Source of the DNA: Methanosarcina horonobensis HB-1 = JCM 15518
GTDB lineage: Archaea; Halobacteriota; Methanosarcinia; Methanosarcinales; Methanosarcinaceae
Direction of reading: 5' to 3'
Assembly: GCF_000970285.1 (NCBI RefSeq)
Contig: NZ_CP009516.1
Coordinates: 1,219,036 to 1,283,035 of the forward strand
Length of the DNA stretch: 64,000 nt
Position numbers and translations under genes: made by a program. Below are positions 28,805 through 34,746 of this stretch, piece after piece. The first letter of the stretch is position 1. Each line of letters begins with the position of its first letter. Below the pieces are notes generated by a model. It saw only the letters and a program-made list of their open reading frames with translations, did no database searches and was not told the origin of the DNA.

Positions 28805-29333
28805 AGCATCAGAAATTTCAAGAGTAATCATTAAATATCTTAAGAAATTCCTTTATCATACAAGAAGAGTTCTATTTAATATGTGAAGACTTCTATATAA
28901 TAAGGAGGCAGGCGCTCAAAAGGATATGTTTGCAAATTTATAGCTAAAAAGGTGTATATATCAGTTATTTAGGCTAGAAAGATGCAGTGTATATATAAAA
29001 AACGCAAAGAAGTAATATTATTTTAATTTCTTTTTTGAGTTTATTATCGGACATTCAATTTGAGAATATATTAGTCTAAATTTAGTATTAATTATTGACT
29101 TATCAGCTCATATGACTTTAGAATTGTATACTTTCTTTTTTATATCTTTCTTTGAATCTGAGTTGGGACATGTACTCATATAAAATACTTCTGACCAAAT
29201 CATAAAACAATCAAAAATCATTAAACAATCAAAGACCTGGAAGTGATGTATGGGCTCAAAATTAGTTTGAAAATCGAATTGTTAGAGACTTTGGCCGGAA
29301 AACTTATAAGAAGTTAAGTAAAAGGAATTTATT
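28805..29333. other. AT-rich intergenic DNA with putative promoter of the C39 peptidase gene
   Basis: No gene is seen. The last 70 bp (from about 29262, AAAATTAGTTTGAAAATCG) is conserved with 34368 onward; the AAAACTTATAAG at 29299-29310 is a plausible TATA box, which would put the transcript start near 29335 and make the following leader about 125 nt. Confidence 0.4.
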
Positions 29334-29461
29334 GGAGTTCGGAAGTAGTTCCCAAGATCCCGAACTCCATAAAGTATGCCCTAAGAGGCAGTAATTATGT
29401 TAGCTTTGCTTTTATTTAAGCTTGCCTGATTCTGCCTCCTGGGAAATGAACAGGAGTGATT
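29334..29461 (+). promoter_or_regulatory. Structured leader with alternative SD-sequestering helices (copy 1)
   Basis: A 5' leader strongly conserved with 34443-34568. Helix 1 is GGAGTTCGG (29334-29342) with CCGAACTCC (29360-29368), enclosing a conserved AAGTAGTTCCC. GAGGCAG (29385-29391) can pair with CTGCCTC (29432-29438). Alternatively CTCCTG (29436-29441) can pair with CAGGAG (29451-29456), the Shine-Dalgarno sequence of the C39 peptidase gene, across a 9-nt loop. The two last helices share bases 29436-29438 and exclude each other. This is the architecture of a translational riboswitch or similar switch; I do not recognise it as a known class. Confidence 0.6.
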
Positions 29462-30706
29462 ATGACAATGAAGAAGAAATTTGTATTAAGTGTATTGCTT
29501 GCCACAATGCTTCTGATGAACATAGCATTTGTGCCGGTAAGCGCACAAACAGAAACATCGTCAGTGAGCTCAGATGTCAAACAGGTTACTTTAACACTTG
29601 ATCAGCAACCTGGAGATCTATACATTCCTACAGAATGTAAAACAATCATCGACTTAAGCAAAACAAAGGTTGATAAAAAATCAGCGACAGCTCGATTATC
29701 AGGTACTATTGATAAGAACAACTTAGTTACTCTTGAAGGTGTAATCACACTTGATGGGGAAAACGAGAAAGTTAACTTATCTGGTAAAGCATACCAAGTG
29801 TTTATTGGATGGGATGTGCCAAAAGGAGCAAAACCTATCATTACCAAACTGAGCAGTGGACCAATATCCCACATCGAAGGCATAACAGAGACATATGCAA
29901 CTTATGGCAATCTGCAAAATAATATCTCCAAAATAGACAATGTGACAATTACCCGTTATGAAGGCGCAACAAAGATGTATGCAACATATGTCGATCTGCA
30001 AGATAAAGAGGGGAAATACAAACTACATGGTGAATTCTATAAAGACGGAACAGGAGGTATTGTTGGGAAAGTTATGAAGAACGGAGTTGAATGTGATCTA
30101 GGTCTTTTGGGACTATCTAAGAGCCTATATGAAAATGTTAATCCAACTGTTTCACCCGCCAGTAGTTCTAATTTCTTGGATGTACCTCAAAGAAGTCAAT
30201 GGGAAATATATTGGTACTCCCCATATAATTACACTGCTGCAAGCCAAGCCTGTGGAGAAGCGTCTGCTGCAATGCTTCAAGAATATTATACAGGCCAACG
30301 TCCAGAAATATGGAATATCTGGGTTGCTTGTGGTTCTCACGCGGTGACTGGTAATGATTTAATGAGTTATTTTAATTCCATAGGAATGGGTTATATAGGA
30401 CTTGCAAAAGCTTGGGGTACTACTCCGGATTATGTAAATACTTGTATCGGGTATGTAGAGGCTGTTGTCGATATGCAACATCCAATGATTTTGCAAGAAA
30501 ACAGCCGATGGGGGACCCCTCATTCGGTAATTCTTAGAGGATACACAAGCCAATACTTTATATTAAATGACCCAAATACCCTCACCGGTTCAAATACAAT
30601 GTATTGGTATCATAAAGATCTCTCTACATTTAACTTTGAAGACAATGTCGTGAAGTGGGTAGGGGGAGACGACAACCATAATACTGGACTTGCCGCTCTA
30701 TGGTGA
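29462..30706 (+). CDS. Secreted C39-like cysteine peptidase
   Basis: About 414 residues. The GTG at 29456 lies inside the Shine-Dalgarno AGGAG, so ATG 29462 (or 29468) is the better start. A Sec signal peptide (MKKKFVLSVLLATMLLMNIAFVPVSAQ) leads to an extracellular N-terminal region with no recognised domain (30-220), including near-repeat segments around GITETYATYGNLQ and GATKMYATYVDLQ. The C-terminal domain (about 230-414) is a C39-like peptidase: catalytic Cys region SQACGEASAAMLQEYY, His in TPHSVILRGY and Asp/Asn in YFILNDPNT. No ABC exporter is adjacent, so it is not a bacteriocin processor; a surface or medium protease is likely. Confidence 0.82.
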   Translation: MTMKKKFVLSVLLATMLLMNIAFVPVSAQTETSSVSSDVKQVTLTLDQQPGDLYIPTECKTIIDLSKTKVDKKSATARLSGTIDKNNLVTLEGVITLDGENEKVNLSGKAYQVFIGWDVPKGAKPIITKLSSGPISHIEGITETYATYGNLQNNISKIDNVTITRYEGATKMYATYVDLQDKEGKYKLHGEFYKDGTGGIVGKVMKNGVECDLGLLGLSKSLYENVNPTVSPASSSNFLDVPQRSQWEIYWYSPYNYTAASQACGEASAAMLQEYYTGQRPEIWNIWVACGSHAVTGNDLMSYFNSIGMGYIGLAKAWGTTPDYVNTCIGYVEAVVDMQHPMILQENSRWGTPHSVILRGYTSQYFILNDPNTLTGSNTMYWYHKDLSTFNFEDNVVKWVGGDDNHNTGLAALW

Positions 30707-31649: not shown

Positions 31650-31724
31650 TGTCAAGGCCGGTGAATAATTCCTCATTTTAGCCGGATTAAAATTCCCCAA
31701 TTTCCAATCCTTGAGAAAAGCTCG

Positions 31725-32485
31725 AGGATCGTAAATCATGCTGAAAACGGAGGAAAACCCATTGTCAAGGACTTCGTACAAAAAATCCGACCTGAGCAGG
31801 GAGTCCCTGCTGTACTCCGCTGCGAAACAAAACCAGGCGTACAGGCTCAGGTTGACTGGGCAGAGATAGGAACAGTTGAGGTTGATGGAAAGATAAAGAA
31901 ACTCTTTTGCTTCAACATGATTCTTGGATATTCCAGAATGAGATATGTTGAATTTACACTGAGCATAGACACCCCCACTCTTATTCAGCGTCATCTGAAC
32001 GCTTTTGAGTACTTTGGAGGATTTACACCGGAGATTCTCTACGATAACATGAAACAGGTTGTTATCAAAAGAGCCTTAAAATCATCCGATTCTGAATGGA
32101 ACTCACAGTTTGAAGATTTCTTCAAATGCGTTGGTTTTATTCCACGGTTATGCAGGCCTTACAGGCCTCAGACAAAAGGTAAAATTGAAATACAGTTGGT
32201 TTTGTCAAGAGGGATTTCTTCCTTGGAAGACGATTTACCTTTCTCGAAGACCTGAACGGCCAAGTTCACAGGTGGTTGGAAAGGGTAAATTCAACTGTCC
32301 ACGGAACAACCTATCAAATCCCCTCTTGAACATTTTAAGGAGGAGAACCTGAGCCCTCTGGATCAGGTTCCTCCTTACAAAGTTGTCCATAAGGAAACCA
32401 GAAAGGTCTCCAGAGACTGTTATATTTCTTTCCTTAGAAATAAGTATTCTGTTCCTTACAGAAAAGAAACACAGGGAATCTGCTG
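31725..32485 (+). pseudogene. istA: istA transposase remnant
   Basis: Reads ENGGKPIVKDFVQKIRP, then PGVQAQVDWAEIG (first catalytic Asp of the DDE domain), LYDNMKQVVIKRAL (second Asp) and RPQTKGKIE (Glu). A single-base deletion after KGKIE (near 32190) and another shift near 32325 break the frame. Beyond these one can still read FLEDLNGQVHRWLERVN, then EHFKEENLSPLDQVPPYK and YISFLRNKYSVPYRKET, the IstA C-terminal beta-barrel. The N-terminal HTH is missing. Confidence 0.85.
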
Positions 32486-33087
32486 CAATTGAGAGAATGA
32501 TGAAAAGTGCAGTTTTTCCCGTTAGAAAGACTCTTGAGGAATTCGATTTTGAATTTCAGAAATCCATTGATAAAAAAGTAATCGAAGACCTTGCAACCTT
32601 GAGATTTGTCCATAATTCAGAGAATGTCGTTTTCCTTGGTCCTCCTGGAGTTGGCAAGTCTCATCTTGCAATAGCTCTTGGGATTGAAGTAGCAAAAGCA
32701 GGGATTTCGGTTCATTTTACCAATACAGGAAACCTTATCGAGAAGTTGAAAATAGCGAATCGAGAAGGAATGCTTGAAAAGAAACTAAGGGACTCGATGA
32801 AATATAAAGTGCTGATAATTGACGAAATAGGGCATCTCCCATTTGACGAAGAAGGAGCTCACTGCCTATTTCAGTTGATCTCAAGACGTTATGAAAAGAG
32901 CTCAACGATCTTGACATCAAATAAGTCGTATGGAGAATGGGGAGAGATATTCAAAGACCATGTAATAGCGGCTGCTGTACTTGATAGGATTCTCCACCAC
33001 TCAACTACGATTAACATCAAAGGGGAAAGTTACAGGTTGAAAGAAAGGAAAAAACAGGGAATAAAAACAGGAAATATTTACCAGTAA
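32464..33087 (+). pseudogene. istB: istB helper ATPase, N-terminally truncated
   Basis: From HRESAAIERMMKSAVFP the sequence is a typical IstB AAA+ protein: KTLEEFDFEFQKSIDKK, Walker A LGPPGVGKSHLA, Walker B VLIIDEIGHLPF, sensor TSNKSYGEWGEIF and the C-terminal RILHHSTTINIKGESYRLK. The first 60 or so residues of the N-terminal domain are absent, replaced by out-of-frame istA sequence. The open frame starting at 32383 is therefore a chance fusion. Confidence 0.85.
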
Positions 33088-33228
33088 TTTCTAACGAGTT
33101 TATAAAAAATTGAGTAAACTTTATATTAAAAGATGAGGAAAAGTAATCCGGCTAAAATGGGGAAAAGTAAACCGGCATTGACACACATATTATGAGGGAC
33201 TGAAAATCTCCACTTTTCAGGTGTTGGT

Positions 33229-33831: not shown

Positions 33832-34442
33832 AATCTAAATACTTTACAATCTTTGAGATCTTCAGTTGATTTTCGGCTTGAATGAATTACCTTCCTTCTT
33901 TCATCTATCCGGCAATTTAGCCATGATTTTTTAATCAGCCAATTTTTAGGAGTTTACATGAACGCAAAACTAGCTGATATGCTATCATGAATATCCGCAC
34001 TGATAGCTCTTTTTATAGCATTATATAACACATATCTTGGATAGTTAGATAAATCAAAAACATACAGTTTGCAGTATGATACAAATAGCATTACGGAAAA
34101 ACGGAGATATGTATAAAAAAGGTGAAAATAGCAAACAGACACCTGAGAGAAAACTTAGCCCTATAGTTGTTACAAGTGGTCTTTGAAAATGTTAACGACT
34201 AAGAGCTAAAAACCAGAGGATGTGAACCCGATACAATAGAGACAATGCATCAGGTTCATGAGCACATTACATCTGGAAGGAAAAAACGAACTGTAATACT
34301 TCCGGCCAAATTCTCTAACTGTCAATGATCAAGTAATAAGCTCATATCAAGTAATAAGCTTATATCAAAATTAGTTCGAAAATCGAATTGTTTGAGAGAT
34401 TACACAGAAAACTTTTAGAGGATTAGGAAAGAGGAATTTATA
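33832..34442. other. Intergenic region with decayed coding DNA and an 18-bp tandem duplication
   Basis: A plus-strand trace at about 33957-34115 reads MNAKLADMLS, stop, ISALIALFIALYNTYL and YSLQYDTNSITEKRRYV with several stops; it looks like a dead small membrane protein. At 34328-34363 the unit ATCAAGTAATAAGCTCAT is duplicated as ATCAAGTAATAAGCTTAT. From 34368 the sequence matches the promoter region of the C39 peptidase gene. Confidence 0.4.
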
Positions 34443-34568
34443 GAGTTCGGAAGTAGTTCCCAATTCACCCCGAACTCCATAAGTACGCCCTAAGAGGCAT
34501 AATTGTCTTAGCTTTGCCCGTATTTATGCTTGCCTGATTCTGCCTCCTGGGGATAAAAGGAGGATAAC
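34443..34568 (+). promoter_or_regulatory. Structured leader with alternative SD-sequestering helices (copy 2)
   Basis: Paralogue of the leader at 29334. Helix 1 is GAGTTCGG (34443-34450) with CCGAACTC (34470-34477). GAGGCA (34494-34499) can pair with TGCCTC (34541-34546). Alternatively CCTCCT (34543-34548) can pair with AGGAGG (34558-34563), a strong Shine-Dalgarno sequence five bases before ATG 34569, again across a 9-nt loop. The ATG is followed by a stop after five codons, so the gene it once controlled (apparently the matrixin relic) is dead, though the leader is well kept. Confidence 0.6.
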
Positions 34569-34611
34569 ATGAAATATAGTAAATAAAGGCAGGTGCAACT
34601 GCATGAAATAA

Positions 34612-34746
34612 TGCGGATGCCGCATTCACCTTCAAATTTCTTCCGATTCTGAAAAAACAATGTACTATCAAGCGGGAACAAATGAAATAAAGAAAAGAAC
34701 TCTTTATCCAGATGATATTGCAGGTATCAAAGCTATTTATCCTTAA
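34612..34746 (+). pseudogene. Matrixin-like (M10) metallopeptidase C-terminal relic
   Basis: The frame ending in TAA at 34746 reads SSDSEKTMYYQAGTNEIK, then RTLYPDDIAGIKAIYP. A Met-turn followed by TLxPDDIxGIxAIY is the standard C-terminus of matrixin-type zinc peptidases. The zinc-binding HExxHxxGxxH part and signal peptide are absent; only about 45 codons remain after the leader at 34443. Confidence 0.65.

Follow-up and report, generated by a model that had tools for sequence, protein, structure and literature searches.

A family of secreted-protein leaders in Methanosarcinales with two exclusive helices and a probable antisense partner of the sRNA162 kind

The leader at position 29334 of the window (the whole stretch of 64,000 nucleotides of Methanosarcina horonobensis DNA that was analysed) precedes the gene for a secreted C39-like peptidase and belongs to a new class of leaders, which carries a switch of a known general kind and is tied to a known archaeal antisense RNA, sRNA162. 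We consider it probable, though by no means certain, that the leader is a translational switch that is ON by default and is turned OFF by its own cis-antisense RNA, the antisense step being the part that we infer. The mRNA would begin at the hairpin P1. In the default ON state, the segment X would pair with the segment M to form helix A, closed over the inner helix C, with M occupied and the Shine-Dalgarno sequence (SD) open. When X is withdrawn, M would fold onto the SD to form helix B, giving the OFF state. Most likely, X would be withdrawn by an antisense RNA of the sRNA162 type that is encoded in cis and made from a promoter inside the leader, with its first ~65 nt complementary to X and P1. 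Most copies of the leader, including the one at 29334, presumably make and use such an RNA in this way.

Table 1 Features of the two leader copies in the window and of the genes behind them
Feature	Position	Strand	Basis or remark
Sense TATA box CTTATAAG	29303..29310	+	Predicted mRNA start ~29331 (+/-3), right ahead of P1
P1 hairpin	29334..29368; arms 29334-29342 and 29360-29368	.	Stem covaries, loop sequence varies
X, GCCCTAAGAGGCAG, 5' strand of helix A	29378..29391	+	SD open when paired with M
Antisense (sRNA162-like) RNA 5' end, predicted	29389	-	Runs to lower coordinates through X and P1
Inner helix C	29402..29422; arms 29402-29406 and 29418-29422	+	Swap test, pair counts, G.U vs A.C
TATA-like box CTTAAATA, antisense promoter candidate	29413..29420	-	Within the loop of helix C; near-palindromic, direction inferred
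M, CTGCCTCCTGGG, strand common to both helices	29432..29443	+	With X, helix A (ON); with SD, helix B (OFF)
Shine-Dalgarno CAGGAG, 3' strand of helix B	29451..29456	+	Sequence, co-variation with M
Secreted C39-like peptidase, 414 aa, signal peptide	29462..30706	+	PF13529, E 8.8e-9
Second leader copy	34412..34564	+	TATA 34412, P1 34443-34450/34470-34477, X 34487-34499, M 34540-34552, SD 34557-34564
Remnant (pseudogene) of a secreted M10 metallopeptidase gene, behind second copy	34569..34746	+	tblastn

The initial annotation had placed the arms of P1 and the pairing segments GAGGCAG (29385-29391), CTGCCTC (29432-29438), CTCCTG (29436-29441), and CAGGAG (29451-29456) in this leader, and all of these coordinates are verified. 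Helix A is present but was drawn too short, as its 5' strand extends to GCCCTAAGAGGCAG (29378-29391) opposite CTGCCTCCTGGG. The P1 loop, which had been described as conserved, contains AAGTAGTTCCC only in the two copies of the window and a small number of close copies, so that this sequence is no motif of the family as a whole. The fold of 29320-29475 is better than that of shuffled sequences (z -3.0; 2 of 200 shuffles are equally good). It is the comparative evidence, not this single-sequence fold, that argues decisively against chance.

The start codon of the C39 protein is the ATG at 29462. A TATA-like box begins 29-31 nt 5' of P1 in 80 of 101 Methanosarcina leaders. This spacing is the same as in M. 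mazei MM2442, the start of which has been mapped by RACE (PMC3510493), and therefore the sense mRNA is predicted to start at ~29331. The sequence upstream of the TATA box is also common to copies (29265-29300 and 34370-34405 in the window), with the form AATTAGTT.GAAAATCGAATTGTT.GAGA, and suggests a common transcriptional regulator. In leaders of several other genera (L110, L122, L128, L136, and similar), P1 is immediately preceded by an additional inverted repeat, of the form CACATTAT..ATAATGTG or ACATC..GATGT, which might act as an operator or form another hairpin.

The leader is one of many. A BLAST search of its own genome with the leader returns 12 places: the query locus, ten other copies, and a weak match at the end of the list. 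A first covariance model, R1, built from 34 copies, finds homologues in 27 of 31 Methanosarcina genomes, with up to 34 copies per genome, and its matches span nine genera of the family Methanosarcinaceae. A second model, R2, built from 75 diverse leaders, gives 18 matches below E 1e-3 in the own genome. R2 matches occur in 105 of 186 genomes of the order Methanosarcinales, and in none of the 52 remaining genomes of the class outside this order. The sense strand matches no Rfam family, riboswitches included, and no published description of the leader family was found in the open-access literature.

The second copy in the window stands ahead of a gene remnant, which is 71-74% identical (tblastn) to the C-terminal end of M10 proteins behind other leader copies. 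Between the two leader copies, the region 31670-33180 reads like a degenerate IS21-type element, in which the transposase frame is broken and the ORF 32383-33087 resembles an IstB ATPase.

The genes behind the leaders have secretion in common. An ORF with a strongly hydrophobic, signal-peptide-like N-terminal segment follows 207 of the 215 leaders with a parsed start codon, a count that is somewhat inflated because the hydrophobic-segment criterion also helped pick the start codons; for comparison, 7 of the 34 long ORFs of the window carry such a segment. Alignments of the downstream proteins show a plain signal-peptide consensus, with unrelated mature parts. When 135 downstream proteins are compared with Pfam, most have no match, and the matches are mainly to peptidases (C39_2, reprolysin-like M12B, matrixin M10, and C70). 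The genes do not represent a single metabolic pathway. They encode varied secreted proteins, with peptidases as the main recognised class, and the position of homologous leaders ahead of secreted proteins, often peptidases, raised as a check in the initial annotation, is borne out.

The helices are supported by comparison among leaders. In an arm-swap test, native arms are compared with arms exchanged between leaders in a set of 173 non-redundant leaders. Native pairs are better for P1 (z -14.7), A (z -11.5), B (z -11.9), and C (z -7.7), and the control pairing of X with SD gives z about 0 (z -0.8 with capped energies); as the sequences are related, these z values are not probabilities. The effect is also seen when arms are exchanged within a single other genus (A -5.4, B -3.8) or within Methanosarcina type I (A -3.2, B -4.7). 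Pair counting in a structure-blind alignment of 75 leaders finds two-sided changes in 10 of 11 pairs of P1 and 5 of 9 pairs of B, and also in A and C, and the whole structure scores higher than shuffled and slid controls. The swap tests and the two-sided changes support P1, A, and B independently, and the helices covary, a point that the initial annotation had raised as a check. M and SD co-vary as TGCCTC/GAGGTA, TGCCTTTTG/CAAAAGGTG, CTCCTG/CAGGAG, CTCCTAG/CTAGGAG, and CTCCTGA/TCAGGAG, and CCTTTT occurs with AAAAGG. An A.C mismatch recurs inside helix A at the pairs X-2:M+4 and X-3:M+5, in ~50 leaders at each.

Helix B is less secure at greater distance. In three more distant families, the swap test again supports P1, A, and C, but not B (z 0.02), the strands of which are nearly invariant there, with some start codons misplaced by the parser. 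The model that retrieved these leaders includes A, and only the B result is free of the bias that this brings. In three leaders, L326-L328, from a more distant family, A is kept and B hardly forms.

Helices A and B compete for a median of 7 bases of M, and in the folding model they are mutually exclusive through the common strand 29432-29443. When the SD is masked, 169 of 173 leaders form A, and when X is masked, 153 of 173 form B. The two exclusive helices proposed at the outset, one of them hiding the SD, are thus in place and kept in relatives. The loss of either helix in homologues, named at the outset as evidence to the contrary, is for the most part not observed; B is weak or absent in L326-L328. 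In leaders that form both helices, A lies lower in energy by a median of 7.8 kcal/mol and is the more stable of the two in 96%, so that the default state is predicted to be ON. The predicted probability that the SD is unpaired is 0.46 in the free leader, 0.09 with everything up to X masked, and 0.52 with P1 alone masked. Such a fall in SD accessibility upon masking of X would predict repression by an antisense RNA that covers X. Neither helix has a U-run behind it, and a transcription terminator is set aside for this reason.

The greater stability of A also bears on a thermometer or simple SD hairpin that acts with no trans factor. The SD does sit in a short helix, B, but B alone would set no threshold when A is the more stable in nearly all leaders that form both, and A is maintained independently, which makes this a most improbable reading.

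Which strand is under selection can be judged from the wobble pairs. If the RNA of one strand is selected, G.U is tolerated and A.C is not, the reverse holds for the other strand, and the neutral ratio is 1:1. The G.U:A.C counts are 396:38 for helix C, 177:53 for helix B, and 131:14 for inner helix A. In the aligned core of P1, they are 68:228 (12:53 outside Methanosarcina). The excess is smaller for the whole of P1 including loop-side pairs (222:344), and counting by distinct pair, type, and genus gives 10 vs 26 for P1 outside Methanosarcina. The counts come from related sequences with shared ancestry and are not independent. By these counts, C, B, and inner A behave as helices of the sense RNA, and P1 as a hairpin of an antisense RNA. 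The pattern agrees with an antisense RNA whose start lies in X and which continues through P1, and P1 probably doubles as the first hairpin of this RNA.

The Rfam model of sRNA162 (RF02792) gives sub-threshold matches to copies L008 and L003 on the strand opposite the leader. The antisense strand scores 32.1 bits for the window copy at 34443 and 42.5 bits for L008, against a cut-off of 78; the copy at 29334 is not among the listed matches, and neither window copy has a score above the cut-off. At the true sRNA162 loci, the sense strand has the same leader architecture with another sequence, and a secreted protein is encoded behind it. Mapping in M. mazei has located the start of MM2442 and that of sRNA162, and the two transcripts overlap by 65 nt; the 5' part of sRNA162 binds the MM2442 leader, with an outcome reported as unknown (PMC3510493). 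The M. mazei sRNA162 start falls inside the 5' strand of helix A. In 153 of 173 leaders (~88%) from the five best-sampled genera, an antisense TATA-like box lies 28-34 nt from the antisense start, nearly always 30-32. Homology to the sRNA162 5' end and a TATA-like box 30-32 nt away place the predicted antisense 5' end at 29389. This position and the promoter-like box are consistent with an antisense RNA encoded opposite a secreted-protein leader and starting in X. Judged by sequence, the antisense strand of the leaders is to be assigned to the sRNA162 family, below the Rfam cut-off in the case of the window copies, and antisense control is the better reading because of this kinship. Against the antisense-controlled switch stand the near-palindromic form of the TATA-like block, which might instead be a sense promoter, and the small effect published for sRNA162 on MM2442, where overexpression led to a slight drop of MM2442 mRNA (PMC3510493). 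The scores of the window copies below the sRNA162 cut-off, the failure of the swap test to support B in the more distant families, and the smaller wobble excess over the whole of P1 also count against it.

In many leaders (e.g. L154 and L309), X is GCCCGAAGGC, which the antisense strand reads as GCCUUCGGGC, a 5'-terminal hairpin with a UUCG tetraloop. For MM2442, the paper reports no ribosome-binding site upstream (PMC3510493). In sRNA162-type leaders (L043, L046, L047, L052, and L067), a GAGG motif precedes an upstream TTG start codon, so that the annotated MM2442 start may be too far downstream.

The strongest rival is a leader that senses a protein or metabolite, in which a signal bound by P1 and the C hairpin would tip the balance between A and B, the antisense RNA being incidental. 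Two exclusive helices are a classical expression platform, and the C helix and the flanking TTAGCTTTG block are conserved. However, alignments and per-position information, in which a conserved aptamer was sought, show conserved unpaired bases mainly in the TATA-like block; a conserved unpaired pocket is absent, and the P1 loop differs among copies. In addition, the downstream genes share secretion and not a pathway, the P1 wobbles lie on the antisense strand, and Rfam offers no riboswitch match. We therefore regard such sensing as unlikely. From the initial riboswitch-like reading, the structured translational leader stands, but a ligand-binding aptamer finds no support, and the wobble pattern of P1 fits an RNA transcribed from the other strand.

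Less probable again is that the conserved 3' block matters chiefly as DNA, in the form of an internal promoter (sense or antisense) flanked by inverted repeats, with the helices as by-products. The TATA-like box stands at a fixed distance in most copies, and the dispersed copies are alike also upstream of the TATA box, as this would have it. But A, B, and C covary, the swap tests are specific, and SD and M change together (CCTTTT with AAAAGG), which is needless for a promoter. Control by translation of a short upstream ORF (ATG TTA GCT TTG ..., MLAL...), as suggested for MM2442 by authors who invoked sORFs (PMC3510493), is very improbable: the frame is open in many Methanosarcina copies, but among the leaders tested only 41 of 83 from Methanosarcina and 15 of 55 from other genera have the ATG, which is otherwise absent or out of frame, and a leader-peptide attenuator is rejected because the start codon is not conserved.

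The preferred antisense-controlled switch may extend to an archaeal regulon that spans the secretome, in which every mRNA for a secreted protein would have its own switch at the ribosome-binding site and its own closing antisense RNA, and sRNA162 would be one of several hundred pairs across the order. We put this forward tentatively, at somewhat less than even chances. Few classes of cis-regulatory RNA are known in archaea, and this leader family is common. It ties translation to protein secretion in environmentally important methanogens and their relatives, and puts sRNA162 in a general context. Genetic tools are available for M. mazei and M. acetivorans, and either species would allow a direct test of the switch.

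Among known systems, the closest is the MM2442 leader with sRNA162 and sRNA171 of M. mazei (RF02792), which has the same order of P1, X, C, M, and SD and a secreted protein downstream. In MM2442, a sense start ahead of P1 and an antisense start in X are mapped, whereas the starts of the window copy are predicted. The sRNA162 paper describes one sRNA with homologues in three species and does not contain the sense-strand switch, the wider leader family, or the link to the secretome (PMC3510493). What the present analysis adds is the leader family with its gene context, the four helices P1, A, B, and C, the finding that A and B exclude each other, and the prediction that the SD closes when X is masked. 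Translational riboswitches that sequester the SD are alike in having two exclusive helices, one of which hides the SD; unlike them, the leader family shows no sign of an aptamer or of a common metabolite pathway. In cis-antisense control of the plasmid copy-number type, the fate of a leader is decided by hairpin-hairpin pairing. The likeness lies in a variable-loop hairpin that both strands encode and in a downstream structure whose form, as we suppose here, would depend on binding of the antisense RNA. The leader family differs in being archaeal and chromosomal, with many dispersed copies and secreted proteins as its targets.
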